From a virus: 53,508 nucleotides of DNA. The notes beneath the pieces are model-generated. The model had not been told where the DNA came from. It made no database searches and saw only the letters and a list, made by a program, of their open reading frames with translations. Positions 3,074 to 50,065 of this stretch are shown piece after piece. The translations under genes were made by a program, and so were the position numbers. How positions within the stretch are numbered: the stretch's first letter is position 1; each line of letters opens with the position of its first letter. The stretch is taken from positions 1 through 53,508 of the IMG/VR virus record IMGVR_UViG_3300046171_000007; one strand, written 5' to 3'.

Positions 3074-3340
3074 TTAGGGGATATAGTGCTGCATTTCATG
3101 CATCGCCGGTCTGTTTTCATGTGTTAAAACATAAACACGCCATTCGGTGGCGTCGGATATGGCGTCAATTCATAGCATATGCCATTGACCATAACCTAAA
3201 AAGTCCAGGCATTTCAATAGTTTAGCAGCTTTCGATCCATCGCTTGCGTCACGGGCTGGCGCGAATGAAACAAAAGGTGTCGCAATCGGGCGTAATCCGC
3301 GCGGATCAAGGTGGGCAGGCGGGGGCCACGGTGGGGGTAT
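3074..3340 (-). pseudogene. Possible gene remnant interrupted by an in-frame TGA
   Basis: On the minus strand one frame reads coding-like sequence (ARDASDGSKAAKLL, FLGYGQWHML), meets TGA at 3172-3170, and continues in the same frame as IDAISDATEWRVYVLTHE to TAA 3076-3074. Amino-acid texture is good on both sides of the stop, and there is no clear start codon with a ribosome site. It could be a decayed gene, a sequence error, or chance. Apart from this, 2998-3470 holds no gene I can support. Confidence 0.3.
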
Positions 3341-3470
3341 ACGTACGTATATATGGTGAAATACACAGATTGGGAAAATTGAATGGTAACCACTGCGGCA
3401 ACTCATAACCATCTTATGCACAAGTACTGCACAATGTGCCTAAAAAATAGGCAACTCCTTGCTCACGATA

Positions 3471-3489
3471 TGTTACATATATTGTAACA
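3471..3489. promoter_or_regulatory. 19-bp palindrome upstream of the rightward promoter
   Basis: TGTTACA-TATAT-TGTAACA is a perfect inverted repeat with 7-bp arms. It ends 23 bases before the -35 hexamer at 3513. The spacing fits an activator or a repressor acting on the rightward promoter. The binding protein is unknown. Confidence 0.55.
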
Positions 3490-3512
3490 ATCAGTAACAG
3501 TACATTTTGTTC

Positions 3513-3541
3513 TTGACAGTGTTTTTACGGTATGGTATAAC
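3513..3541 (+). promoter_or_regulatory. Strong sigma-70-type promoter for the rightward unit
   Basis: TTGACA (3513-3518), a 17-base spacer and TATAAC (3536-3541) make a near-consensus housekeeping promoter. The first gene starts at 3735, so the transcript would carry a leader of about 190 bases. The promoter at 17763-17790, before the capsid gene, shares the same hexamers and the following TA, so both may belong to one class read by host RNA polymerase. Confidence 0.75.
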
Positions 3542-3613
3542 TAGTATATATAATGCTTCATTAGATGCTCTACATTAAATAAAAGAACATAGATGTAAAA
3601 ACATAGATGAAAT

Positions 3614-3688
3614 AAATTTGTTAAAGACATCTAATGCTACATCTAATATAAGCAAACTTGTTAAAAGCATTAAATGCTACATCTAATA
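3614..3688. repeat. Two 35-bp iteron-like direct repeats in an AT-rich leader
   Basis: The repeats occupy 3614-3648 and 3654-3688, match at 30 of 35 positions, and have a 40-bp period; each ends GCTACATCTAATA. The octamer CATCTAAT occurs at 3628, 3640 and 3680, and its complement ATTAGATG is at 3560-3567, so the leader RNA could fold in alternative ways. The region is AT-rich and noncoding. A replication origin and a regulatory leader are both possible. Confidence 0.6.
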
Positions 3689-3734
3689 CCCCCCTATGGA
3701 CTAAATCTCGTATTTTCAAAAAAAGTAGTTGACA

Positions 3735-3983
3735 ATGGCGAAGAAATCTGTAAAACTATATACAGACAACGTATTGGAGGCATTTTATGATGCCATCAAG
3801 AATAACACATTAGATAAATTACACATACCTCATAGCGATGTATTTTTTGTACGTAAGGCAGTAGAAGCACATTATGGCCGCCCTTTCACATTAGAACACG
3901 TAGAGTGGGCTATGCGCATGGAAGGATGGACAGACGATGTTGACAGCAATGGTACTGGTATGCAGCCTCGTGACAGAGAATGA
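3735..3983 (+). CDS. First gene of the rightward unit, small protein
   Basis: The product has 82 residues from ATG 3735; a TTG two codons upstream (3729) is in frame but less likely. It is soluble and helix-rich, with the stretch VRKAVEAHYGRPFTLEHVEWAM, which could fit a small DNA-binding helix pair, though I see no definite helix-turn-helix. The 3' end overlaps the next gene by 47 bases. Function unknown. Confidence 0.65.
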   Translation: MAKKSVKLYTDNVLEAFYDAIKNNTLDKLHIPHSDVFFVRKAVEAHYGRPFTLEHVEWAMRMEGWTDDVDSNGTGMQPRDRE

Positions 3984-4143
3984 CTGTATGTTGTTCACTG
4001 ACAATCGTGGGCCGTATGATACTGAAGAAAAATGTTTAGCCCGTGTTGAAGAGATGATTACGGATATCACTCCAACACTTCCACCTGTGCCAGCACAGTT
4101 TAGGTACAAGTGCGAACAAGTGATTAAGGGAACTGCGACATGA
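3937..4143 (+). CDS. Small secreted or membrane-anchored protein
   Basis: The 68-residue product begins with a short hydrophobic segment, MLTAMVLVCSLV, then a polar region with three further cysteines, which suits export or lipid anchoring. Similar short proteins with a hydrophobic start are common at this place in marine podoviruses. The stop overlaps the next start (ATGA at 4140). Function unknown. Confidence 0.6.
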   Translation: MLTAMVLVCSLVTENDCMLFTDNRGPYDTEEKCLARVEEMITDITPTLPPVPAQFRYKCEQVIKGTAT

Positions 4144-4442
4144 GTGTCGAATATCGTGGCATTACATTCCCAGGATATAACAAACCGATTAAGTCAAACC
4201 GTGAAGGTAAGAAGATGATGGTTCTTGCCAAGGAGGGTGACAAGGTTAAGTTAATCCACTTTGGTGCTACAGGTTATGGTCACAATTACAGTGCTGCAGC
4301 GCGTAAGTCATTTCGTGCTAGGCACAAATGTGACACAGCGAATGACAAGATGACTGCTCGGTACTGGGCATGTCGTCATCTGTGGAAAGGGCCAAGTGGT
4401 AGCAAGAAGTCCAGCCCTAAGTCACGCAAAGGAAAATACTAA
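4140..4442 (+). CDS. DUF6321-like protein
   Basis: The 100-residue basic protein has the pattern of DUF6321 as I know it: an N-terminal FPGYNKP, then VLAKEGDKVKLIHFG, then RKSFRARH and ARYWACRHLW, with a Lys/Ser-rich tail. The family is common in marine phages and its role is unknown. It is coupled to its neighbours by overlapping stop and start codons on both sides. Confidence 0.75.
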   Translation: MSVEYRGITFPGYNKPIKSNREGKKMMVLAKEGDKVKLIHFGATGYGHNYSAAARKSFRARHKCDTANDKMTARYWACRHLWKGPSGSKKSSPKSRKGKY

Positions 4443-4693
4443 TGGCTAAGAAGAATAAAAAGAATGACGACGTAATGGTTGTCTCAATTGGTGTAGGCAC
4501 TATGCCAGCAAAGAAGCTGAAAGAAAAGATGAAGAAGGCTGAGATGGCAATGGGTGGTATGGCTAATGGTAAGAAGCATATGTATTCTGCTGGTGGCAAT
4601 GTTACTGACAAGCTGCCAAACAAAGGCTTGCAAAGGCTGGCATCTACAACCAAAGGACGGGAAGCTGTACGTAACATGGGCTTTGATGTCTAG
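4442..4693 (+). CDS. Small basic protein, unknown function
   Basis: The 83-residue product is Lys- and Met-rich, with a KKLKEKMKKAEMAMGG segment and a Gly-rich middle. It has no transmembrane helix and no known motif. It follows the DUF6321 gene with a one-base stop/start overlap and is probably a virion or packaging-associated accessory protein, by position only. Confidence 0.6.
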   Translation: MAKKNKKNDDVMVVSIGVGTMPAKKLKEKMKKAEMAMGGMANGKKHMYSAGGNVTDKLPNKGLQRLASTTKGREAVRNMGFDV

Positions 4694-10510: not shown

Positions 10511-11198
10511 CATAGAAGACGTTTCATATGAAACAGAAGCTATTGAAGAACATGCTAACGTACTGTTTAAGCCTAACCCCGGACCACAGACAGAGTTTCT
10601 TGCCGCAGCGGAACGTGAAGTTCTTTACGGCGGCAGTGCAGGGGGCGGTAAGTCATACGCAATGCTTGCTGACCCACTGCGTTACATGGGACATCCGCAA
10701 TTTAGTGGACTCCTGCTACGACACACAACAGAAGAATTGAGGGAACTCATATTCAAGTCGCAGGAGTTGTACCCAAAAATCTGGCCAGGCATTAAGTGGT
10801 CAGAACGAAAGATGCAGTGGACCGCGCCATCTGGCGCAAGGTTGTGGATGTCATATCTCGACAGAGATGATGATGTCTTGCGTTATCAGGGTCTGGCATT
10901 TAGCTGGATAGGCTTTGACGAGTTGACACAATGGGCCACACCATACGCATGGAACTACATGCGATCTCGTCTACGGTCCACTGCACCTGACTTGCCTATC
11001 TTCATGAGGGCTACAACTAACCCCGGAGGACGGGGGCATCACTGGGTCAAGAAGATGTTTATTGATCCAGCCCCGTACAATAAGTCGTTTGATGCAACAG
11101 ACCTTGAAACTGGTGAAGTACTGAAGTATCCAGCCTGGACACCAAAAGGCAGGAAAGTCTTTGTTCAAGCGGCGATTTATTCCCGCAAGGCTTGCTGA
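10389..11198 (+). CDS. terL: Terminase large subunit, ATPase half (frame broken)
   Basis: This half holds the packaging motor ATPase: Walker A YGGSAGGGKS, an adenine-binding region with RYQGLAF, and Walker B WIGFDEL, followed by the coupling motif TTNPGG. The frame ends at 11198 in missense residues after about position 11145. The terminase continues in the +1 frame from 11161, and one extra base in 11140-11172 explains the break. The start may be ATG 10389 or TTG 10473; the latter removes a basic leader. Confidence 0.85.
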   Translation: MKNNVRTKLQASASGQNMRKRQSPKRKPLKKKEPEQKPTVSIEDVSYETEAIEEHANVLFKPNPGPQTEFLAAAEREVLYGGSAGGGKSYAMLADPLRYMGHPQFSGLLLRHTTEELRELIFKSQELYPKIWPGIKWSERKMQWTAPSGARLWMSYLDRDDDVLRYQGLAFSWIGFDELTQWATPYAWNYMRSRLRSTAPDLPIFMRATTNPGGRGHHWVKKMFIDPAPYNKSFDATDLETGEVLKYPAWTPKGRKVFVQAAIYSRKAC

Positions 11199-11949
11199 CA
11201 ATCCTTACCTATCCGAATCAGGTGACTACGAAGCAATGCTTCTGTCACTACCAGAGCAACAGAGAAGGCAACTTCTTGATGGTGATTGGGATATTAAAGA
11301 GGGTGCAGCCTTTACGGAGTTTGACCGCACTATTCATGTGGTTGATCCTTTCCCCATTCCTAATAATTGGGTTAAGTTTAGGGCTTGCGATTACGGCTAC
11401 GGTTCATATAGCGGGGTTCTGTGGTTTGCTGTTAGTCCTTCTGAGCAACTTATTGTATACCGTGAGCATTACGTGTCAAAAGTTTTGGCGACGGATTTGG
11501 CAGAACAAATCTTGGAACTTGAGTCAGGTGATGGCAATATTAAGTACGGTGTCCTTGATAGTTCTCTTTGGCATAAGCGCGGCGATACTGGCCCTAGCTT
11601 GGCAGAACAGATGATTATGAAAGGGTGTCGTTGGCGTCCATCAGACAGAAGCAAAGGCAGTCGTGTAGCTGGCAAGAACGAAATTCATAGGCGTTTACAG
11701 GTAGACGAATTTACAGAGGAACCTAGACTTGTATTCTTTAATAGCTGCACAAATGTCATATCACAGTTACCGGCCCTCCCGATTGATAAAAAGAATCCAG
11801 AGGACATTGACACACATAGTGAAGACCACTTGTATGATGCCCTGAGATATGGTATAATGTCAAGACCAAGGTTTAGCATATTTGACTATGATCCTATGGG
11901 ACGCCCATCAGGTGGTATGCAGGTAGCAGACTCCACATTCGGATACTAA
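11161..11949 (+). CDS. terL: Terminase large subunit, nuclease half (frame broken)
   Basis: This is the continuation of the packaging terminase. It opens with FKRRFIPARLADNPYL, the conserved linker before the RNase H-like nuclease, then acidic residues of the active site at FRACDYGYGS, YGVLDSS and EDHLYDALRYG. The nuclease cuts concatemers during headful or site-specific packaging. The listed start is a TTG that is probably not used; the piece is part of one polypeptide of about 500 residues with the ORF ending at 11198. Confidence 0.85.
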   Translation: MFKRRFIPARLADNPYLSESGDYEAMLLSLPEQQRRQLLDGDWDIKEGAAFTEFDRTIHVVDPFPIPNNWVKFRACDYGYGSYSGVLWFAVSPSEQLIVYREHYVSKVLATDLAEQILELESGDGNIKYGVLDSSLWHKRGDTGPSLAEQMIMKGCRWRPSDRSKGSRVAGKNEIHRRLQVDEFTEEPRLVFFNSCTNVISQLPALPIDKKNPEDIDTHSEDHLYDALRYGIMSRPRFSIFDYDPMGRPSGGMQVADSTFGY

Positions 11950-27656: not shown

Positions 27657-27868
27657 TGAAACTCACTCCAGAGACACACATGGAACCTGCTTTCAAAACT
27701 CAGATGGAACTTGAGGCACACGAGAAAGAGTGTGCCATAAGGTACGCAGCAGTGCAGGAGAAACTGGAGTCTCTGGACAAACGCATGTGGCGTTTAGAAG
27801 CGATGATTATGGGTAGCACTGTTCTTGTGGTAGCTATGGTGGTCACTGTATTTATGGGAATTAAGTAA
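27656..27868 (+). CDS. Membrane protein with coiled coil and one C-terminal TM
   Basis: The 70-residue protein has a charged helix (residues about 10-45, EAHEKECAIRYAAVQEKLESLDKR) and one transmembrane helix at about 48-66 (IMGSTVLVVAMVVTVFMGI). The layout is like XhlA-type phage membrane proteins that help holins, or a spanin component. Its stop overlaps the next ATG. Confidence 0.6.
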   Translation: MKLTPETHMEPAFKTQMELEAHEKECAIRYAAVQEKLESLDKRMWRLEAMIMGSTVLVVAMVVTVFMGIK

Positions 27869-29988
27869 TGGCAATGTTCAAAGCATTTAAGCCTAGCGGC
27901 ATGGAAAAGATTGCTCGTGCTATGGGCTATCAGGGCAATATGCAGGGCTTTCAGAACTACCTTGCTCAAGACCCCATGCGTCAACAGCAGATGCAGACAT
28001 ACCAAAACAAGGCCATGCAAATGGCAAAGGGTGGTGTCGTGAAGATGCGTGAGGGTGGTATGCTTAAACCCGGTGTAACACCTGAAATGGTTGCTTCATT
28101 TCCGCAGATGGGTCAAGTCATGGGGCCAGCGCAAAATGCTGCTGGTGGTTATAATCCACAGACAGGACAGTTTACACCATTGAATCAACTGCCACAAGGT
28201 CCAGCCGGACAATTTGCACCCGGAACACTTGCACAAGCACAGAACCAGATGCAGATGTCTGGCAATATAACAGGCAATCTAGAAGATGCGTATGACCCGC
28301 GTGGACCCATCACTGATGGTAGACCTAGTTTTGGTGGACGATTGCCCGGATTAGGTGGACCAGCAGATAAAGTTGTTGCCGCACCTATCATGAGAGATTT
28401 GAGCAAGATGTTTGATACATCTATTATTGACCCCCGCACTGGATTTGCTCAAAGACTTAAATCTGATGGGACAATAGACGAAGGCCATTTTGGCGATTAT
28501 CAATTTTATGCTGATAAGGCTAAAAAGGATTACGAAACTAAACTTGCAGAGTTTCAGCGACGGCAAGCAGCACTAGGTCAAAACTTTACGTATGGTCAAC
28601 TGCAAGAGTTTCAACGAAAAGAAGGCATTCAAAATCTAAAGAATAAGCATCAAAACGTAGATACAGGTTTCTTTGACTCACCTGAATTTAAAAATATGAG
28701 AGGTGGTCCAGCAGGACAGGCTTTTACATATTCTCCTTACTTTGGTATGCACGGAGATACTTCTATTGGGACACAGGACCAAGCCTATGAGGCATACCTT
28801 CGTAGAACAGGGCAAACAAACAAACTTCGTGGCGGTTCTGAATTTGTTCAAGCGCCGGGGCAACTACCGCGCTTAGAGAAAGCGCTGCCAGTTATGCCTA
28901 CCACAACGGAGGCACCTTCACCTGACGGATTAAATCCAAGCATAACTATGGACACTAATTATGGTCAGCCCCTAATGTCCGCAGATGGCACTATGGACAT
29001 GGGTACAATGAATACTCAACAACCTGACTACAGTGGCATGACATATGAACAAGCAGTAGCAAGACAATCACAACGTGATGTGAAATCACCAGCAGAGGCT
29101 GCAGCTATTCAGGCAGCAATTGCACGTGGTCCTGTTGCACAAACCCCACAAACACAACTGCCACAACAGGCTGTACCTACCTTTACAATGCCTGAACCAA
29201 CTACCACTACTGTAACACAGTATCAGGATGCTGACGGTAATGTATACGCAAGTGAGGCAGATGTTCCAGATGGTGTCACAACAACTCCCATAGAAGTTAC
29301 ACAAACAAAACAGCCAACTATTGGTGACATCATGGCACAACAGGCATTTTCGCCAGGTCTGCCAACTGGTGGAGCAGTTGCGCCTGTTGGTATGCAAGCA
29401 ACTGCTGACCAGCTTATTGATCCAACAACTGGCCAAGTCAGTGGTGCAATGGCTGTACCAACCGCTATGGCAACGACTGCTATGGCTGTGCCGTCACAAG
29501 AGGCAGATGCCGCACAGGTGCAAGCAGCTACTGCCGCCCCTGCCGTTGCTTCTGCGCTGGATGCAACAACGGCTGCGACAGGTGCTGTATCACCGAATGC
29601 CAACATTGTAGCTGCACAACAGACTGCTTCATCTGTTGGTAGTCTTGATGCGGCACAGGGTAATGCAACACTTATTGACAATCCTGTACAGCGTGAATTG
29701 CAACAGGGTGAACTTATCTCTGGTGCAGCTGATGCCGAAAAGGCTGCAAAGTTTACTGAGCAGATCGAAGCGGCACAGGCCACACCATCCCAGCAAGCTA
29801 CTGTACAAGGTCAGCTTGCACAGCTTACTGCAAACTTTGACGCAAAGAACCCACCTGCTTGGGCTGCGGGTGCCATGCGTAATGCTACAGCACAGATGGC
29901 CGCACGTGGGCTTGGTTCGTCCAGCCTTGCAGGTCAGGCTTTGGTACAGGCTAGCTATGGAAAGCGCACTGCCAATTGCACAAGCTGA
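27868..29988 (+). CDS. Large internal virion protein A, N-terminal part (frame broken)
   Basis: The N-terminus has MAMFKAFKPSGMEKIARAMGYQGNM, GGVVKMREGGML and long Gln/Pro/Thr-rich stretches; it ends in Ala/Gln-rich helices. Near 29953 one extra base (GCTAGCTATGG) shifts the frame, and the protein continues in the ORF ending at 30976. The whole would be about 1036 residues, one of three giant proteins in a row that probably form the ejected core, as in T7-like phages. Confidence 0.7.
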   Translation: MAMFKAFKPSGMEKIARAMGYQGNMQGFQNYLAQDPMRQQQMQTYQNKAMQMAKGGVVKMREGGMLKPGVTPEMVASFPQMGQVMGPAQNAAGGYNPQTGQFTPLNQLPQGPAGQFAPGTLAQAQNQMQMSGNITGNLEDAYDPRGPITDGRPSFGGRLPGLGGPADKVVAAPIMRDLSKMFDTSIIDPRTGFAQRLKSDGTIDEGHFGDYQFYADKAKKDYETKLAEFQRRQAALGQNFTYGQLQEFQRKEGIQNLKNKHQNVDTGFFDSPEFKNMRGGPAGQAFTYSPYFGMHGDTSIGTQDQAYEAYLRRTGQTNKLRGGSEFVQAPGQLPRLEKALPVMPTTTEAPSPDGLNPSITMDTNYGQPLMSADGTMDMGTMNTQQPDYSGMTYEQAVARQSQRDVKSPAEAAAIQAAIARGPVAQTPQTQLPQQAVPTFTMPEPTTTTVTQYQDADGNVYASEADVPDGVTTTPIEVTQTKQPTIGDIMAQQAFSPGLPTGGAVAPVGMQATADQLIDPTTGQVSGAMAVPTAMATTAMAVPSQEADAAQVQAATAAPAVASALDATTAATGAVSPNANIVAAQQTASSVGSLDAAQGNATLIDNPVQRELQQGELISGAADAEKAAKFTEQIEAAQATPSQQATVQGQLAQLTANFDAKNPPAWAAGAMRNATAQMAARGLGSSSLAGQALVQASYGKRTANCTS

Positions 29989-31214: not shown

Positions 31215-31728
31215 AAATCCAGTATTTAATGCGCCTATTCCTGGCGAATCTTTGACACACGAATTGGGTGCCAGACCTTGGCAACAGCCAGCACAGTTTA
31301 CTACTGTCGAGGAAGCACTTGACTATTACATTCCACGTTTTGCAAACGAGGACGTAATTGCTCAAACAGCTGATGTTCTCAAGATGGGCGTCCCTGTTAC
31401 AACTCTTGCCAACACAATTCAGCTTGCCAGTGTCATGGAAGGCAAGCACAGTATTGATGTTGGTATGCTTGTGCTTCCTGTTATCATGGAAATGCTTATG
31501 TATATTGCAGAAGCAGAAGGTATTGACTATGTTAGTGGCTTGGAAAAAGATAAGAAACTTCGTAGTACACTAATTCAGTCTGCCCTGATCCGTCTTGAAG
31601 AAGAGACTGAGCAGAAGGAAGAGCAAGATACAGAAACAGAAGTTGTAGAAGAGTTGCAGGATACTGTTGAAGTCGAAGAGACAGAAGATACTCAAGACAT
31701 GAGAAAAGGTTTGATGGGGCGTAGCTAA
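31204..31728 (+). CDS. Putative virion protein, acidic C-terminus
   Basis: The 174-residue protein has LTHELGARPWQQPAQFTTVEEALDYY, hydrophobic helices around 60-100 and a long Glu-rich tail (EEETEQKEEQDTETEVVEEL). I recognise its start as recurring in marine podoviruses, next to ejection proteins. It overlaps its neighbours by stop/start coupling. Function unknown. Confidence 0.6.
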   Translation: MAVENPVFNAPIPGESLTHELGARPWQQPAQFTTVEEALDYYIPRFANEDVIAQTADVLKMGVPVTTLANTIQLASVMEGKHSIDVGMLVLPVIMEMLMYIAEAEGIDYVSGLEKDKKLRSTLIQSALIRLEEETEQKEEQDTETEVVEELQDTVEVEETEDTQDMRKGLMGRS

Positions 31729-34232
31729 TGGCACTGTTTGGTTTAGGAGCATTTGGTCAAGGTCTTGTTACTGGTCTGGCAACGAGTACGGACAAGGCCA
31801 TTCAGGGTGGCTTGGAACGTGTGCGTGAAAACATTGATGAGTTTTCTAGTGCTACATTGAAGCGCGAACAAAAAGCTATTGAAAAAACAGAAAAAGAAGC
31901 AGAGGAAGTTATTGAAGAACTTCGTTCTGCACAAGCTGTTCTTGGTGGTGTAAATGATCCACAGTCTGCAGGTCGCGCTGCGGCGTTGCTTGAGAACATT
32001 GGTGATCTTGATGAATTTAAATCTGTCGTAAGTCAAATAAAAGAACATAGTTTTCAAGACAATATAAGTGAAAATTATGACTTTACAAAATACTTTGACA
32101 CCCAAGTAGATGCTAGCGAAGTAAACCTTGGAGATGCTGCTGTAAATTATGTTATGCGCAGACAACTTCCTACTCGTGCTACACCTATGCCTGAGATGAA
32201 GGGTGGCGGTATTGCGCGTCTCTTTGGGGTTGATGTTGCTGAACGTGCAAGGGCCAAGACTGATGCACAACTTGCAGCACTTGGTCTAGTCCAGCCACAA
32301 GAAAAAGATATTGCACTGCCTAGCATTACATTCAAGTCAGAAGCATTCAAGCTGGATCGTATGGGACCAGAGCAGGAACGCACGTATCTTAGAGATAAGA
32401 TGCTTGACCCTGACACACCACAGGATAAGATTGAGTTCTATCGCACTCGTTATTCTGACTTGTCAAATCGTATGGGACTTGACACACAGATTGAGTCGGC
32501 TACGTTCCAGCTTAATCTTGAGCAAGACCCAGCTAAAAAGAAAAACCTCCTGTTGAATCTTCAAAATCTTAATAGAGAAAAGAAAGAGTTTGATGTTTTG
32601 GCGACGGGCAATAAAATTGATATCCTTAAATTTCAATTGGAAGATGCGATGTCTAAGGGTCAAACAGGTCGTGCTAGACAAATTACGGAAGAATTGTTCC
32701 AAAGCGGTGCTATAAAGGTTACCGACTTTATTGCTGTGCAAGAGGAGAGGCTGCTTGCTGATCTTGCTCAAGGTAAGGATGTTCAGGAAGATATTGACAG
32801 CTTAAAAAATCTAAAGGAAATAGTTAAAACTACTAAGGAAAACATTGAAGGTCTTCCTGATCCTACACCTGCTGGTATAGCAGCTTCATTTAGTAGCGTT
32901 GATAGGATAGTAAATCGTGACCTTGCAAGTGATCCAAAATTTGCAAAAGCTGGTGTTACTATTGACGCTAACAGCCAGTTAGTTATCCCAGACGATATTA
33001 GTACAAACCTCAAGATTGAACTTTCTAAAGCGCGCATAGATAGGTTTAAAAAGGTTGCAGGATTTATGGAAAATTCCATGCCTAATAATCCTGATGTTAA
33101 ACTTGTCACTAACATGGTAAACGGGGGTTATTCTTTAGAAGACGTTAAGGCACTTGGCGAAGCAGAAGCTGTAGTTTCTCCGCCACCATCTGATACACTT
33201 GGCCCTGAATATGACGATACCGCTGTAACTAAGCAAGTTATGGGCGTGTCTATACCCGAAAATGTTGCACGTCGTACAGACTTGACTGATGATGATAAAG
33301 TCGTTGTGGCAAGTACGCAATCTGAGTATGGTGTAGTTCCTTCTGAAGAAGTTCTAATGAACCTCATGTCGGATATACATGATGCCAACGCTAATGTTCT
33401 TGGTAAATCTGGTATTCAAACTTTGATGACAGATTCAATTAAAACAATTTATGGACCAAAAGTTGCAGAACAATACGCAGCACAAATTGATTCGTATATA
33501 AACTCTTACTCTGGATTTGATGATGCTGCATTAAATGAATATTCTGCTGACTCACTTGAAGGACAAATCGTGTCGGTGATGCGTGATTTAGAAAAGGCCG
33601 ATCCTAATTTTGCGGTAGAACAAGTCGCACCTATTGTCAAAAGACAATACTATGAAGGCGACAGAAGTGTTGACATTCCTGGTATTATGAGTACGGTCAC
33701 AAAACTTGTGACGCGCCACAGGAATAAGCGTCCTACTGAAACAGGATTTATTTCTCCAAAACGTAGAGCAGAGATTGAAAATGTTCGTGAAGCATCAGGT
33801 CAGCCACCTATGGAAGAAACAGGAACCGATAGCCTTTTGTTTGACAGAGATCAAATGAAACGCGGACTTATGTATCCTCTCGAAATGTTTGGTATGCCTG
33901 CTCCAGATGATGCACCGGGTAAACCCGTAAGTCTTTTTGGGGATTCAGCACCTGACGAGGATGCAGGTATTGCGCCAGAAGATGGTGGTACTGCAACGGC
34001 ACGAGGCAGAACAGGTTTAATGGCTAGGGATACAGATACGCAACCTCTGTCGCCACCTACTAGTCCAAAAGCTATGAGCATTATTTCGTTGACAACAAAG
34101 TACGCAGATGGTACTATAAGCAGTGAAGAAGCTAGTGAACTAAGGCGACGTATTGAAATGGACGAATCTGGAAAAATCGCGGAACAAGTTCAAGGAATAA
34201 TGACTGCGATAGCAAAAGGAAAGCAAGATTAA
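31728..34232 (+). CDS. Large internal virion protein B
   Basis: The 834-residue protein is intact. It begins ALFGLGAFGQGLVTGLATSTD, then a long charged helical region, and has Pro/Asp-rich linkers near the C-terminus (SPPPSDTLGPEYDDTAVT). I find no enzymatic motif. Its place between the small acidic virion gene and the 1198-residue protein makes it the second of three probable ejection proteins. Confidence 0.65.
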   Translation: MALFGLGAFGQGLVTGLATSTDKAIQGGLERVRENIDEFSSATLKREQKAIEKTEKEAEEVIEELRSAQAVLGGVNDPQSAGRAAALLENIGDLDEFKSVVSQIKEHSFQDNISENYDFTKYFDTQVDASEVNLGDAAVNYVMRRQLPTRATPMPEMKGGGIARLFGVDVAERARAKTDAQLAALGLVQPQEKDIALPSITFKSEAFKLDRMGPEQERTYLRDKMLDPDTPQDKIEFYRTRYSDLSNRMGLDTQIESATFQLNLEQDPAKKKNLLLNLQNLNREKKEFDVLATGNKIDILKFQLEDAMSKGQTGRARQITEELFQSGAIKVTDFIAVQEERLLADLAQGKDVQEDIDSLKNLKEIVKTTKENIEGLPDPTPAGIAASFSSVDRIVNRDLASDPKFAKAGVTIDANSQLVIPDDISTNLKIELSKARIDRFKKVAGFMENSMPNNPDVKLVTNMVNGGYSLEDVKALGEAEAVVSPPPSDTLGPEYDDTAVTKQVMGVSIPENVARRTDLTDDDKVVVASTQSEYGVVPSEEVLMNLMSDIHDANANVLGKSGIQTLMTDSIKTIYGPKVAEQYAAQIDSYINSYSGFDDAALNEYSADSLEGQIVSVMRDLEKADPNFAVEQVAPIVKRQYYEGDRSVDIPGIMSTVTKLVTRHRNKRPTETGFISPKRRAEIENVREASGQPPMEETGTDSLLFDRDQMKRGLMYPLEMFGMPAPDDAPGKPVSLFGDSAPDEDAGIAPEDGGTATARGRTGLMARDTDTQPLSPPTSPKAMSIISLTTKYADGTISSEEASELRRRIEMDESGKIAEQVQGIMTAIAKGKQD

Positions 34233-34235
34233 GTT

Positions 34236-37200
34236 ATGGCTGGGATTTTAGATAATTCTTTCTTTGCCCAGTATCGAACTGAAAAAGAAGAAGAAACTAC
34301 TTCTGATATTACTATTTCTAAACCTCAGAAATCTTCAGTTTTAGATAATTCTTTTTTCAAACGTTACGGTGGCGTATCAGAGCAAATCAAAGTAGAGTCT
34401 GATATTGCTAACGAAGAAGTTGCATCCACGAAAAGCTATCAATCTGTAAAGAACGATCCGACAATCCGTGAGACAGCTGTGCGGTTTGCTAAAGATCATC
34501 TGGGGTACGATGACATCTCAGAAGATGACGCAATCAGTGAGTTCATTGAACACTTCCGTTCCTTCAATGTCAACGAATTGACATCAGGTATGGATTTCAA
34601 TGTTGTATCCGGCTTGGCAACAGATGCAGACGGACAGACAGACAATGCTCGTAAGGCAAGACAACGCCTTGACGACTACACTAAACTCTATCAAACGTAT
34701 CAGTCCCTGCCCGGTGCCTTTGACGCTGGCGGTGCGCCTGGTGCGTTTTTAGATTATTTGGAGGGTATTGCAAAAGCCCCGTCAACTTATATCGGTATTG
34801 TTCCGGGCTTGTTTACATTTGGTGCAGGTACAGCCGCTACAAAGGCTGGGGCAACTGCTGCGACACAGGTTGCTAAAGAGGGTGTCAAGCAGGTAATTAA
34901 GCGCAAGCTGACATCTCCTGTATCAGAACTTGCCAAGGCTGCTGCTGCAAATCCTGTTAAGACAACCGTGCTTACAGAAGCTGCGGCAGGTGCCTTACAG
35001 AATACGGCACAACAAAAGACTGAGATGGAGATTGGCGAGAGGCAGGAGTTCAATAAACAAGAACTTGCCCTGATGACTGCCATCAGTGGCGCACCTGCTG
35101 CCCTAATCCCCGGACTCTTGAAAAGTGTATCCAGTAAAACTATCAACAAGAGTGCTGAAAGCATTTTGACGGATGCTGAAAAAGCTATTGCCAAGAAGAA
35201 TGAAGAGGCAATTGAGGCAGCTGAAAAAACATTCTCTGCTGACATTGAACTGGCACGGGATATTGACCTGTCGTTCCGTCTTCCAGCAGAACAAGGCACT
35301 GAACGAGTATCCTCTAAAATAAAACTTGATCCAGAGGGTGTAGCACGTGGTAACTTAAGTGCCAAAGAGATTGGTGAAAACCTTGGCATTGCCGACGAGT
35401 TTATGATTACCATTGACCCAAGCCGTGACAAGCGTCTTATAGCTGCTGGTATGGAAGTAATCAAGGCTGGTAAAGTAAAGTATGATCCGACCACTGAACG
35501 ATTTAGTGATGCACTTGGCAGGGCTTTGACAGAGGTAGACTTTGAAGAAGAGGGGCTGAAGTCGTTCAAAGACACACTGAAGAAGTATAATCTGTCATCT
35601 GATGACATGGTGAATGTTTTGGTAGGTGACTTGCAAAAGGCTGCAGCTAGTGAGGCTGGCGCACTTCTTGGACGTAGGAGTGCAGCAAAGAGACTGCTTC
35701 GTCGTATCACTGATGTAGGTTCTACAGAAATCTTTGGTTTGACTGAAGAAACTACAGCGTCCCTGAAGAAGCTGGACGATGCGCTGTCTAGCGGTGATGC
35801 ACGTAAAGTTCTACAGGCAACTGGCGAAGTCAAAGAAGGTATTACTATTCGTGGTATTGACCAGCTTCGTCTGTCGATGATGACTTCTCAGACGGCTACA
35901 ACTTTCCGTAACTTGATATCGGGCTACACACGTGTCGGCTTTGATACAGTAACTAAAGTATTTGACCGTTCTATTGCTAGTGGCCTTGGTGTTGTGGGTA
36001 AAGGCAAGGGCAAGGTGAAGCTATTTGAAGCAACGCCTAACGCAGACCTTGCAGCAGTTCTTGTCGGCATGACTAATCACACACGTTCTCGTGCCTTGCG
36101 TGAACTGTTGGCACAGGCATATCCACGTAGATACCAGCAGATGTTCCGTCAGTTGACAGACATTGCTGACGCATCGGGTGAACTCAAGGGTGCAAAGACA
36201 TCAAAGATGCAGCACATGGCACGGGAGTTGAATGCACTCAATACCTTGCAAGACAACATGTTCAAGCAAGCGTCCTTTTATGGCGAACTTGCCCGTGAAC
36301 TAAACGAAGCTGCTGCACGTGTGAAGGCAATCAACCCAGCACAGGATGTATCACAGTTTAATCTGGAACGTATCATGCGTTCTGGCAACTTTGCTGAACT
36401 GGTTGAGCAGCAGATCAAAGTCGGTGATACTGTAGTATTTGACGGCAAGGAAGCTGTAGACAGGGCTATTGACAAGTCTCTGTATTTCACGTTCCAGAGA
36501 AGCCCAAGCAATGCTACGGCAAAGGCTATGGTAAATGCTGCACACTCTCTTCCGTTTATTACGACATCCTTTGTACCGTTCCCTCGCTTTGTTGCAAATG
36601 CTCTGCGCTTTACCTATGAATACTCACCAGCTTATCTGGCATCTGGTATCAAGCAAGCACTCGCCAAGGATACTAATAACTACGAAGAACTGGCAAAGGG
36701 TCTGACAGGTAGTGCATTTCTTGCAGGGGCTATGGCATTTCGTAACAGTGAGTATGCTGGCGAAAGCTGGTACGAAGGTAAGACAATGGATGGCAAGACG
36801 TATGATCTTCGTCCATTCTTTCCTGCTGCACCATACCTATTCTTTGCTGACTTGATTACTCGTGGCCTCAAGGGTGAACCGCTGACTGGTGACAGGAGTA
36901 TCACTACTGAGGCAATTCAGGCACTATCTGGTACACAATTCCGTGCTGGCTTTGGTGTGTATGCACTTGACCAAGCATTCAAAGACATCACAGAAGCACA
37001 AGATATGGAAAAGGCTGCAGAGATTGCGGCTAACTTTACCGGCAATATCATCAACACATTCACTATTCCGTTTACATCTTTCCAAGATACGTACAACACC
37101 TTTATCGCAGAGGATGAGGCACGTATTGTGCGCGATGTGGACATGCAGATTAAGGATACTAAGGACTTCCTTACACTGATTGCACGTCGTTCTCTTGCAC

Positions 37201-37832
37201 GTATTCCACAGAACTATAAGATTGAAGAGTATTTGTCTGAACAGCTAGGTATTAAGCAAGCTGAATACTACGAGTCTGGAACTCGTGCAGAAAAGTTGCG
37301 CAGGATTGCCCCTATCAGCCGACAAACTATGGGTATCTTACTCCAAGAACGTAAGAACTTTTTTGAAGAAGAGATTGCTCGACTCAAGATTCCTCGCAGT
37401 GTAATCAATGCGCGTACTGGTGTGCCAGAAGCTGACATGATGCTTGACGCATCCTATGGTGAATACATTACCAACTACGTTGTGCCTCGTATGCAAACAG
37501 ACGTTTACAAAAATCTTGATAATGGTAAACAAGAAATCTTTATTCGTGAATTGATATCAAATTACAAAACGGATATCAAAGAAGCAGTAGAAGAGAATGC
37601 TAAAGAAACAGCACACGCACGATTTGGATTCAATCCCTTTGAGTTGGTTGAGTTTAACAAGTTTAGACCTAGCGAATACACAGAGATGGCAATCCAGCTG
37701 TATGAAGAACGCTTTGGAACTGAAGCACCAAAAGATTATGACTTGCTTCTAAAGATTGCAAAGAAACTAAAAGCACGAAGAAAGTATTCTAGATTCATAG
37801 GGTCAGAAGACTTCTTCGCAACTGACCAATAA
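34236..37832 (+). CDS. Large internal virion protein C
   Basis: The longest frame, 1198 residues, intact. The N-terminus repeats a short motif, LDNSFFAQY and LDNSFFKRYGG. Residues around 185-215 are hydrophobic (STYIGIVPGLFTFGAGTAA). The rest is helical with mixed charge and resembles the large ejected transglycosylase-like proteins of podoviruses in size and place, although I see no catalytic Glu motif. It ends three bases before the arm terminator. Confidence 0.7.
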   Translation: MAGILDNSFFAQYRTEKEEETTSDITISKPQKSSVLDNSFFKRYGGVSEQIKVESDIANEEVASTKSYQSVKNDPTIRETAVRFAKDHLGYDDISEDDAISEFIEHFRSFNVNELTSGMDFNVVSGLATDADGQTDNARKARQRLDDYTKLYQTYQSLPGAFDAGGAPGAFLDYLEGIAKAPSTYIGIVPGLFTFGAGTAATKAGATAATQVAKEGVKQVIKRKLTSPVSELAKAAAANPVKTTVLTEAAAGALQNTAQQKTEMEIGERQEFNKQELALMTAISGAPAALIPGLLKSVSSKTINKSAESILTDAEKAIAKKNEEAIEAAEKTFSADIELARDIDLSFRLPAEQGTERVSSKIKLDPEGVARGNLSAKEIGENLGIADEFMITIDPSRDKRLIAAGMEVIKAGKVKYDPTTERFSDALGRALTEVDFEEEGLKSFKDTLKKYNLSSDDMVNVLVGDLQKAAASEAGALLGRRSAAKRLLRRITDVGSTEIFGLTEETTASLKKLDDALSSGDARKVLQATGEVKEGITIRGIDQLRLSMMTSQTATTFRNLISGYTRVGFDTVTKVFDRSIASGLGVVGKGKGKVKLFEATPNADLAAVLVGMTNHTRSRALRELLAQAYPRRYQQMFRQLTDIADASGELKGAKTSKMQHMARELNALNTLQDNMFKQASFYGELARELNEAAARVKAINPAQDVSQFNLERIMRSGNFAELVEQQIKVGDTVVFDGKEAVDRAIDKSLYFTFQRSPSNATAKAMVNAAHSLPFITTSFVPFPRFVANALRFTYEYSPAYLASGIKQALAKDTNNYEELAKGLTGSAFLAGAMAFRNSEYAGESWYEGKTMDGKTYDLRPFFPAAPYLFFADLITRGLKGEPLTGDRSITTEAIQALSGTQFRAGFGVYALDQAFKDITEAQDMEKAAEIAANFTGNIINTFTIPFTSFQDTYNTFIAEDEARIVRDVDMQIKDTKDFLTLIARRSLARIPQNYKIEEYLSEQLGIKQAEYYESGTRAEKLRRIAPISRQTMGILLQERKNFFEEEIARLKIPRSVINARTGVPEADMMLDASYGEYITNYVVPRMQTDVYKNLDNGKQEIFIRELISNYKTDIKEAVEENAKETAHARFGFNPFELVEFNKFRPSEYTEMAIQLYEERFGTEAPKDYDLLLKIAKKLKARRKYSRFIGSEDFFATDQ

Positions 37833-37862: not shown

Positions 37863-37965
37863 ATCTAAGACAGTCGCATACTGTGTGTATCAATCCTGTT
37901 CCCATTATGTAAGTTATGTATGCAATTATTATACCCACGTATACTCGCATAATCCACTTAGACAT
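37861..37965 (-). CDS. 34-residue membrane peptide
   Basis: The last gene of the leftward arm starts at ATG 37965, overlapping the stop of the gene above, and ends at TAA 37863-37861 in the terminator. One hydrophobic helix (VYVGIIIAYITYIMGTGLI) fills most of it, with a CxC end. The exact overlap supports translation. Function unknown. Confidence 0.6.
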   Translation of the reverse strand: MSKWIMRVYVGIIIAYITYIMGTGLIHTVCDCLR

Positions 37966-38209
37966 ACTCCAAGATTCCCACCGCAAGGATGGCAGCGGAG
38001 ATAGCATTCAGCACGATGATTGACCTGTCGTGCCACATGAATCCTACCCATGCCCACAATCCCATTCCAATGACACCAAGCACCATGTCCATAAGATGTG
38101 AGTAGTCCGCTGCTCGTATCACGATTGCCGACAGGATGAAGAAGCTGGCAGTCCACTTGACGTACCACGTGACATCCTTATATGGCGTTACCTTATTGAC
38201 TGTCTTCAC
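37958..38209 (-). CDS. Small membrane protein, three hydrophobic helices
   Basis: The 83-residue protein has three hydrophobic segments at about 18-33, 42-58 and 63-80, with a WHDRS turn between the last two. It follows the Na/Pi cotransporter-like gene by one base and is coupled to the 34-residue peptide. A membrane-associated accessory role is likely; no family is named. Confidence 0.65.
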   Translation of the reverse strand: MKTVNKVTPYKDVTWYVKWTASFFILSAIVIRAADYSHLMDMVLGVIGMGLWAWVGFMWHDRSIIVLNAISAAILAVGILEYV

Positions 38210-38210
38210 G

Positions 38211-38684
38211 TCAGAACCTGCCTAGCCATCGTGCTATGTGCGATACAAACGGTAACAAAGTAGCTGCCATAAACAAGTTCACACCTGTGTGCGCCATTGC
38301 AATACGCAACGTATCTCCTTTAGGCATACCGTCTGACACAAACAAACCTGCCAGCCAGATTGTTCCTGTTGTGCCTATGTTTGCTCCTAACACTGCGGCA
38401 ATGGCTGCGGGTAAAGGCAAGGCACCAGAGGCAACCAGTGCAATGATGGCTGTAGTAGACAGGCTGGACGACTGCCACAGCAGTGTCATTATGATGCCAC
38501 CTGCAAACATATACAAGGGGTTGCCCAAGAACCATGAAAGATGTTCTATGTTGCCCATAGATTTCATGCCACCAGAGAATGTCTTTAAGCCTATGTAGAA
38601 TATAACTAAGCCTACTATGGCTGTTATCACAGGGTTTCCTAAGTCCATCTTACTGACTCTCTTCCATAGTTTCTTTCCCTCCAT
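38211..38684 (-). CDS. Half-size Na+/phosphate cotransporter-like protein
   Basis: The product (157 residues from ATG 38684, overlapping the MazG stop as TGATG) carries one set of the signature motifs of the Na/Pi cotransporter family: QSSSLSTTAIIALVASG with QSSS at about 72 and GANIGTT at about 101 when counted from the upstream GTG. Bacterial and animal members have two such repeats; here there is only one, with about four hydrophobic helices. It might dimerise to move phosphate, an auxiliary metabolic role in phosphate-poor seawater. That is inference. Confidence 0.75.
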   Translation of the reverse strand: MEGKKLWKRVSKMDLGNPVITAIVGLVIFYIGLKTFSGGMKSMGNIEHLSWFLGNPLYMFAGGIIMTLLWQSSSLSTTAIIALVASGALPLPAAIAAVLGANIGTTGTIWLAGLFVSDGMPKGDTLRIAMAHTGVNLFMAATLLPFVSHIARWLGRF

Positions 38685-39067
38685 CACCTGTTATCGCCTG
38701 ACCCACTGATTTTCCCGCGCTTGTGTCTGTCTGCGAGTTTTTCAAGATTCTTCTCCATGATATGTCCAAGGTTCATGTCTAGTTCTTCGGCCAGCACAGC
38801 GCAGTACCACAGAACGTCACCAATCTCGTAGCCAATCTCAATCTTCTTAGCTGCGTATTCATCTGGTGGCGCACCGTCACGAATGAACTTCTTAACCTTG
38901 TTAGCAATCTCACCTGCCTCACCTGTCAGGCCAAGAGTCAGATACTCCATAGCCTGATGCTTGGGGAAGATTGCTGTCTCACACGCTTTCTCTTGATACA
39001 GAGATGCCGTAATACTACTCAATTGTTTCTCCTTCATCCACTGTTTAGCCTCTAGTTCCAAGTCCAT
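38684..39067 (-). CDS. mazG: MazG-like nucleotide pyrophosphohydrolase
   Basis: The 127-residue protein has the all-alpha MazG pattern: GLTGEAGEIANKVKKFIRDG supplies the first Glu pair and YEIGDVLWY the later Glu and Asp that bind magnesium. MazG-like enzymes hydrolyse NTPs or (p)ppGpp-related nucleotides and are common in marine phages. GGAG precedes the ATG. It is coupled to the cotransporter gene below. Confidence 0.8.
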   Translation of the reverse strand: MDLELEAKQWMKEKQLSSITASLYQEKACETAIFPKHQAMEYLTLGLTGEAGEIANKVKKFIRDGAPPDEYAAKKIEIGYEIGDVLWYCAVLAEELDMNLGHIMEKNLEKLADRHKRGKISGSGDNR

Positions 39068-48375: not shown

Positions 48376-49142
48376 TATGTTGCTCCTAATTGTTTCAGTT
48401 TGTCGATGTCTGTCGGGTTGCAATACTTCAAGTCTTCCTCAAGGCGCAACACCTTCACGTTTGGTATGTGACTACGCAACTCTTTCGCCATTGCAATAGT
48501 CTTGGTCAGCACGTCAGGGTCTAGTGCAACGATAGCTGCTGAGAACCGTGTGAGATAATGCTTGTGTTCTTCAAGCAATGTTGTGCCTAGCAGTGCGACC
48601 CCGACAAACTTCTCACTGCCTACCACAGCTGCACTCACACAGTCCTCAACAACCACGGCGACATCACCTTGGCCACTGGTATAGGGGAAACCTGAAGACC
48701 CATACCTTCGCCATTTAGGGAGTCGCTTTGTCAACGCCCGACCAGTAGCGTCAACAATCTTGTTGTCATGCACGACAGGAAATACAACACGGTCTTCCTT
48801 TACGTCGTACAGTAATCCCAATTCCTTTTCATTCAGACCCCATCTAGCACACCACCGATTGAATTGCAAGAGGTTTTTGTTGGGTATGATGTACTGAGGT
48901 AACTTAAATTCTTCTACCTTTGTCTCCTGCTGCATCTTCATGCGCTTGATGTCGTCAGGTGTCATGCCTACACGCTTGCCACCACTGACACCACAGGATG
49001 CCTTGTAACAATTCCATACGATGTTACCACCAATGTTCGATACAGTGAACGTCTTGTACCCTTTACATACAGGACAGTTGATACGTTTAGATTCACCGAT
49101 ATATAATGATATATCATTTACTATATTATATATATTATACAT
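48375..49142 (-). CDS. DNA primase, zinc-ribbon and TOPRIM type
   Basis: The 255-residue protein has a CPVC zinc ribbon near residue 23, with two further Cys near 44 and 49, and a TOPRIM domain: VVVEDCVSAAVV (catalytic Glu) and AIVALDPDV (DxD). This matches the primase half of T7 gp4-like proteins. It would make primers for the polymerase encoded downstream. Its start overlaps the integrase stop (TAATG at 49142) with GGGGAT nearby. Confidence 0.8.
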   Translation of the reverse strand: MYNIYNIVNDISLYIGESKRINCPVCKGYKTFTVSNIGGNIVWNCYKASCGVSGGKRVGMTPDDIKRMKMQQETKVEEFKLPQYIIPNKNLLQFNRWCARWGLNEKELGLLYDVKEDRVVFPVVHDNKIVDATGRALTKRLPKWRRYGSSGFPYTSGQGDVAVVVEDCVSAAVVGSEKFVGVALLGTTLLEEHKHYLTRFSAAIVALDPDVLTKTIAMAKELRSHIPNVKVLRLEEDLKYCNPTDIDKLKQLGAT

Positions 49143-50065
49143 TATATATCCCCTTCGTTTGCGGCATCTAATGTGCTTTTACCATGACTGTTTCGTTTTG
49201 TCAATGCGTAATTTGCAGCATCGTATGTGTTTTTGATGTACGGCTTGACCGATTGTGGGTTAGCATGTCCTGTAACCGACATGATTTGTCCTATTCCTAC
49301 ACCAGCCTGAACCATCTCGGTTGTGCCAGTACGTCGCAGGTCAGATAGTCGCAGAGTGTCAGGCAACCCAGCGTTGCGAATCAGTGCGCGTCCATGCTTC
49401 GACATCTTGAAGATGGTGTATGGTTCATACTTCCCATCAATGGGGTTAGGACGAGGTGCTACATATTCTTGGAACCCAAAGTCCTCATGCTGTTGTGTCA
49501 GCATCTCCATCAGGTCATCCGATATGGGTAGGTACACCTCTGCCCTACGCTTTGACTGCAGGATGTGTACACGCTGCTCATCAAAGTCGATGTTGTCCCA
49601 CTTGAGTAGGCGCATGTCGCCCACACGCTGGCACCATTCGTATGCCATCTGTGCAATCAAGCCCAGATTGCGTGTGTTGAAGTCACTGTATGCTGTATCC
49701 AATAGCTGCATGATGTCGTCCTTTTCCCACAGGGTTGTTCTACTTTTAGGTGTACGCCTACGCACAGCATTGAATGGGTTACGAGTGACCATCTCCATAC
49801 GCAAGCCGTGATTGTACACGACTCGCGCAATAGCCATCGCCTTGTTGGCAAAGTGGATGCCCCTCTCGCACCACTCATCGTAGGCGAGTTTGCACATCTT
49901 GCTTGTCAATTTATTGACATCCACCCTGCCAAAATTTTGACCATCAATCTTTGTGGCCAAAACCTGGCGAATTATATATTCATAGTTAGCTTTAGTTTCA
50001 TCCCGTAACTCTTTGTATTCATAGGATGAATAGTAATCACCAACCATTTCTCTGAAGCTAGTCAT
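49142..50065 (-). CDS. int: Tyrosine recombinase (integrase)
   Basis: The 307-residue protein has a helical arm domain and a catalytic domain with R147 (EWCQRVGDMRLLKW), K172, R244 (LSDLRRTG), H267 (VTGHANP) and Y276 (SVKPYIKNT), nine residues after H267 as in lambda Int. The usual His of the HxLR box is Ser (S241). It lies in the middle of the replication operon, coupled to primase by TAATG, not next to an att site. It could integrate the phage, or resolve multimers of the circular genome. Confidence 0.85.
   Translation of the reverse strand: MTSFREMVGDYYSSYEYKELRDETKANYEYIIRQVLATKIDGQNFGRVDVNKLTSKMCKLAYDEWCERGIHFANKAMAIARVVYNHGLRMEMVTRNPFNAVRRRTPKSRTTLWEKDDIMQLLDTAYSDFNTRNLGLIAQMAYEWCQRVGDMRLLKWDNIDFDEQRVHILQSKRRAEVYLPISDDLMEMLTQQHEDFGFQEYVAPRPNPIDGKYEPYTIFKMSKHGRALIRNAGLPDTLRLSDLRRTGTTEMVQAGVGIGQIMSVTGHANPQSVKPYIKNTYDAANYALTKRNSHGKSTLDAANEGDI

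Follow-up and report, generated by a model that had tools for sequence, protein, structure and literature searches.

Many marine phages carry a gene for exactly one half of a sodium/phosphate (Na/Pi) transporter, which in cells is a two-half protein, and we propose that two copies of the phage half probably join into a working transporter. The DNA analysed, here termed the window, comprises positions 1 to 53,508 of the IMG/VR virus record IMGVR_UViG_3300046171_000007, and on this 53,508-nt virus contig lie genes for a portal/head-tail adaptor, a DNA polymerase, a DnaB-like helicase and an integrase. The half-size gene, its motifs and its immediate neighbors are as follows.

38211..38684, minus strand: half-size Na/Pi cotransporter of 157 aa with one PF02690 repeat (open reading frame, Pfam and PDB profile match)
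38634..38684, minus strand: cationic N-terminal leader, residues 1-17 (helix 2-11 in the model), missing from some relatives
38463..38474, minus strand: QSSS motif, residues 71-74, at the tip of the re-entrant hairpin; putative Na+ ligands, aligned to the QSSS of the NaPi-II Na3 site and invariant in 120/120 members
38367..38387, minus strand: GANIGTT motif, residues 100-106, followed by T108; putative Na+ ligands (alignment A2)
38684..39067, minus strand: MazG-like pyrophosphohydrolase, directly upstream, with a TGATG stop/start overlap at the start of the half-size gene
37958..38209, minus strand: 83-aa membrane protein, DUF6552 (PF20189), directly downstream, one base after the half-size gene; not a repeat homologue

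The 157 aa are counted from an ATG, and a GTG one codon earlier (38687) is an alternative start. The sole significant Pfam match of the protein is a single one to PF02690 (Na_Pi_cotrans) that covers residues 28-139 (57.7 bits; cutoff, 29.1), and the NCBIfam Na/Pi transporter models match it below their cutoffs and at different model regions. The sequence-only reading had described a half-size protein with only one QSSS and one GANIGTT, and this is what is found, with one of each motif in the reading frame and no second PF02690 match anywhere in the record. The repeat unit consists of TM1, a re-entrant hairpin bearing QSSS, a broken TM2 with GANIGTT, and TM3, and it is a complete, virus-borne, single-repeat form of the NaPi-II/PF02690 superfamily.

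The assignment to the Na/Pi family, likewise made from the sequence at the outset, is borne out by the PF02690 score and by a profile of 120 relatives, which matched SLC34A2a at E = 2.8e-20 as the only significant match in the PDB. Both SLC34A2a repeats align to one and the same phage unit, the family match is well beyond chance, and PF02690 is matched at E ≤ 0.01 by 120/120 members of the diverse set. The phage half has in common with SLC34 NaPi-II and the bacterial NptA/YjbB proteins a repeat unit with QSSS and GxNIGTT, the family-level match and the proposed Na3 ligands, but those proteins have two inverted repeats per chain where the phage half has one, and cellular forms of 540-600 aa have a long C-terminal extension that it lacks. 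An AF2 monomer from a deeper alignment reached a pLDDT of 88, and a Foldseek search with it found no match in the PDB (to April 2026) or in BFVD; an earlier AF2 model built on 30 similar sequences was of low quality, with a pLDDT of 67, and the fold search made from it was discarded as meaningless.

Nearly all cellular relatives that were examined have two repeats and the viral ones have one. The viral scan used a DNA pattern of the GANIGTTGT type, and at least 105 complete viral reading frames carry it, single-repeat in all of the matches listed. In addition, each of 35 large virus records, some of which may be incomplete, has exactly one copy of the gene (35/35), in line with its original description as phage-carried. 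The cellular-type pattern, GANIGTTVT, used in place of a cellular alignment (A3) that was too divergent, was found on only four viral contigs, all of which encode two-repeat proteins (584-587 aa) that probably come from proviruses or flanking host DNA. On the cellular side, 151 genomes from one phylum were searched for PF02690 and 400 with the phage profile, and the frames obtained were of 327-721 aa save three, namely one on the virus-like L082 contig, one broken by a stop and one of 200 aa. The cellular and plasmid reading frames inspected in detail all had two repeats except for the stop-broken one. A two-peptide-pattern scan of 84,980 species, which reaches close relatives only, gave L082 as its single relative. 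This contig (PAAV01000031.1) belongs to a metagenome-assembled genome labelled Chloroflexi and is viral in appearance, and since a protein 98% identical to that of L082 sits on an IMG/VR contig, it is probably viral. A tblastn search of isolate phages and plasmids with the 157-aa protein returned nothing, and the INPHARED matches of a relative were weak and came from unverified, unannotated records, of which the three examined (L407-L409) encode two-repeat proteins and probably represent bacterial DNA. A single-repeat form shared by several phage groups that lack a second half seems to be new.

The half-size protein is under purifying selection. Comparison of 85 usable pairs gives a median dN/dS of 0.14. 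The halves form only 18 clusters at 80% identity, and among 120 diverse ones (alignment A2) 45 columns are invariant. These include QSSS in 120/120 members together with G100, A101, N102, G104, T105, T106, and T108, with I103 being variable, and H132 and N136 are invariant or nearly so. In NaPi-IIa the proposed Na3 ligands are Gln417, Ser418, Ser419, Thr451, and Thr454 (PMC6325988), and their equivalents, Q71, S72, S73, T105, and T108, are invariant in 120/120 halves, while D118 and N136 align with Asp209 and Asn227 of the proposed Na1 site. At residue 133, by contrast, the halves have Thr (112 of 120) or Ser (8 of 120) in the place of Asp224, the Asp of the SLC34 HDxxN motif, which in NaPi-II is required for electrogenic transport and is linked to the Na1 site (PMC6325988). 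The residues were mapped by eye from an SLC34 alignment, against the published NaPi-IIa models. NaPi-IIa residue numbers that go beyond the text describing those models are our own assignment.

The genes around the half do not supply a second one. The mazG neighbor pointed out in the sequence-only reading does adjoin the half-size gene in the window, but a mazG homologue is present in only 11/174 related loci, so that mazG is not a general partner and its adjacency is clade-specific. DUF6552 homologues are present in 7/174 loci, and the most frequent neighbor family lies near only 35/175 unique half-size genes. Such widely varying neighbors argue that there is no fixed phage partner and, given one copy in each of the 35 records, a fixed partner gene was rejected and a phage-encoded partner is unlikely, which leaves self-association or a host partner. 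The absence of a partner gene from the 35 virus records is observed, as are the homology, the single repeat and the conservation.

Self-association is the most likely of these arrangements because one repeat is half of a substrate site and the phages have no second half. We put it slightly short of an even prospect that the single-repeat half self-associates as a homodimer of opposite orientation, rebuilds the two-repeat core and adds Na+-driven phosphate uptake. In the core formed by two subunits inserted in opposite membrane orientations, the two QSSS/GTT sites, related by symmetry, would bind sodium, phosphate would sit on the two-fold axis, and the infected cell would gain Na+-driven uptake of phosphate. 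In the NaPi-II model phosphate lies almost exactly on the symmetry axis (PMC6325988). What we infer here is the homodimer, its opposite orientation, phosphate as the substrate and the benefit during infection; dimerization of the half is plausible, and transport in the manner of the family would probably require it. The Thr or Ser at the Asp224 equivalent and the one-sided charge of leader-bearing forms speak against the mechanism; the leaderless relatives, near balance when the two TM1 lysines are left out, speak for it.

The charge data bear on membrane topology and are mixed. With the helices of the second AF2 model (pLDDT 88), the K+R bias is +3 in the 157-aa protein and its spread in the family is two-peaked, with values of −4 to −2 in the 15 members that have no K or R before TM1. 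In a narrower count that leaves out the two TM1 lysines, and that was chosen after the first count was seen, the 157-aa protein is at +5, leader-bearing members are at +3 to +9, and members with at most one K or R before TM1 are at −2 to +1, and it is in this count only that the leaderless relatives come near to balance. The 157-aa protein does not have the balanced K+R distribution expected of dual topology. The strong one-sided bias of leader-bearing forms predicts a fixed N-in orientation for them, the 157-aa protein included, and this prediction is the main evidence against a simple dual topology. As a control, the cellular repeats gave a mean of −3.0 for RU1 and +1.0 for RU2, both mixed and only partially separated; with all subfamilies pooled, the loop charge of RU1 and RU2 has two peaks of opposite sign, as if two subfamilies were present in opposite membrane orientations. 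Most members keep the cationic leader but at least 15 lack it and retain the core. The leaderless starts look genuine, with stops upstream and no in-frame upstream ATG, GTG, or TTG, and the tree implies at least six gains or losses of the leader; hence the core can do without the leader. Single-repeat membrane proteins with relatives that are fused inverted repeats are known, namely SMR (EmrE), Fluc, single-domain UPF0016 and DUF606 (PMC4067407, PMC3755343), and the phage half is like them in this respect. Known dual-topology singletons have balanced charge (PMC3755343), in contrast to the one-sided 157-aa protein, and the paired forms of SMR/Fluc-type singletons were not seen among the viral halves.

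The same charge data would suit a parallel oligomer in which all subunits have one orientation and which serves another purpose, for example as a leak channel for ions or anions, rather than rebuilding a two-repeat transporter. Its appeal lies in the strongly one-sided leader-bearing forms and in the retention of the cationic leader by most members, and yet the residues aligned to the proposed family Na+ site are invariant and the core stays intact in the leaderless members, and we judge such an oligomer unlikely, if worth serious attention. It is rather improbable that the half instead pairs with, or disturbs, a full-length Na/Pi transporter or other membrane protein of the host and so alters phosphate traffic or signalling. 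A two-repeat partner could accommodate a single repeat and the phage has no second half of its own, but podoviruses and T4-like phages share this conserved protein, with varied neighbors, which a self-sufficient unit fits better.

Even if the homodimer transporter forms, its main substrate might be another anion or solute instead of phosphate, since the motifs do not reveal the substrate and the Asp224 equivalent is Thr or Ser; the best family and structure matches are nonetheless Na/Pi transporters, and we give this alternative little weight. The half has about a third to half of the length of its cellular relatives, as might be expected of a remnant of a full-length gene that was captured and is now decaying, but decay was rejected on the dN/dS of 0.14, the 45 invariant columns among 120 sequences and the hundreds of related copies, those examined being intact and of similar length, and its probability is negligible.

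Inverted-repeat transporters presumably arose from single-repeat proteins that paired in opposite orientations. We tentatively suggest, from the sequence evidence and with clear doubt, that the single-repeat Na/Pi transporter of marine phages is an antiparallel homodimer and a modern equivalent of the single-repeat ancestor postulated for inverted-repeat transporters of this fold. A natural, conserved and unfused Na/Pi half would allow one-repeat ancestry to be tested directly for this fold. The mean identity of the half is 26.4% to RU1 and 27.5% to RU2, so that it is about equally far from each, and 25.5% separates RU1 from RU2 to a similar degree. On the tree the half falls next to RU2, at the boundary of RU1 and RU2, a placement that lacks support, and the half may thus derive either from the loss of one half or from an unfused half.

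The gene was looked for in other marine phages, as the sequence-only reading had suggested, and its relatives occur on marine viral contigs in the hundreds. One query reached relatives in 549 viral stretches and a distant query in 504, counts which overlap and come from scans that reach only sequences with shared short peptides. Both HMO-2011-type podoviruses and T4-like phages are among the carriers. The RNR-MazG region of the window, which encodes a B12-dependent RNR, has its closest match in Puniceispirillum phage HMO-2011, at 74.4% identity across 29% of a 7.9-kb query, with RNR and MazG annotated beneath the match and a similar gene order. Relatives from the distant query have T4-like features (a polymerase of the gp43-type family and a porphyrin-biosynthesis/CobS-like gene) on contigs of up to 177 kb, and on one large marine phage contig, L187, Nol-like carbamoyltransferase (3153-4580) and porphyrin-biosynthesis (CobS-like; 10686-11870) genes lie near the half-size gene. 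Qin et al. (2022; PMC9038755) reported PF02690 in eight genomes of HMO-2011-type subgroup I and proposed phosphate transport during infection, and hence the carrier group and the proposed phosphate role were already known. Their gene and ours have the Pfam family, the phage group and the proposed phosphate role in common, but the passages of that paper on PF02690 make no mention of gene length, a single repeat, T4-like carriers or a missing second half, and the two are likened by family and phage group alone. No other literature report of the half-size gene or of PF02690 in phages was found. A half-size transporter would show a minimal route by which marine phages could influence phosphate uptake. 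A search of the window for Rfam and tRNA features found none. Three large reading frames (27868-29988, 31728-34232, and 34236-37832) have no PHROG match and perhaps encode virion proteins, and a tyrosine integrase-like gene (phrog_1) is located at 49142-50065, so that the phage may be temperate.
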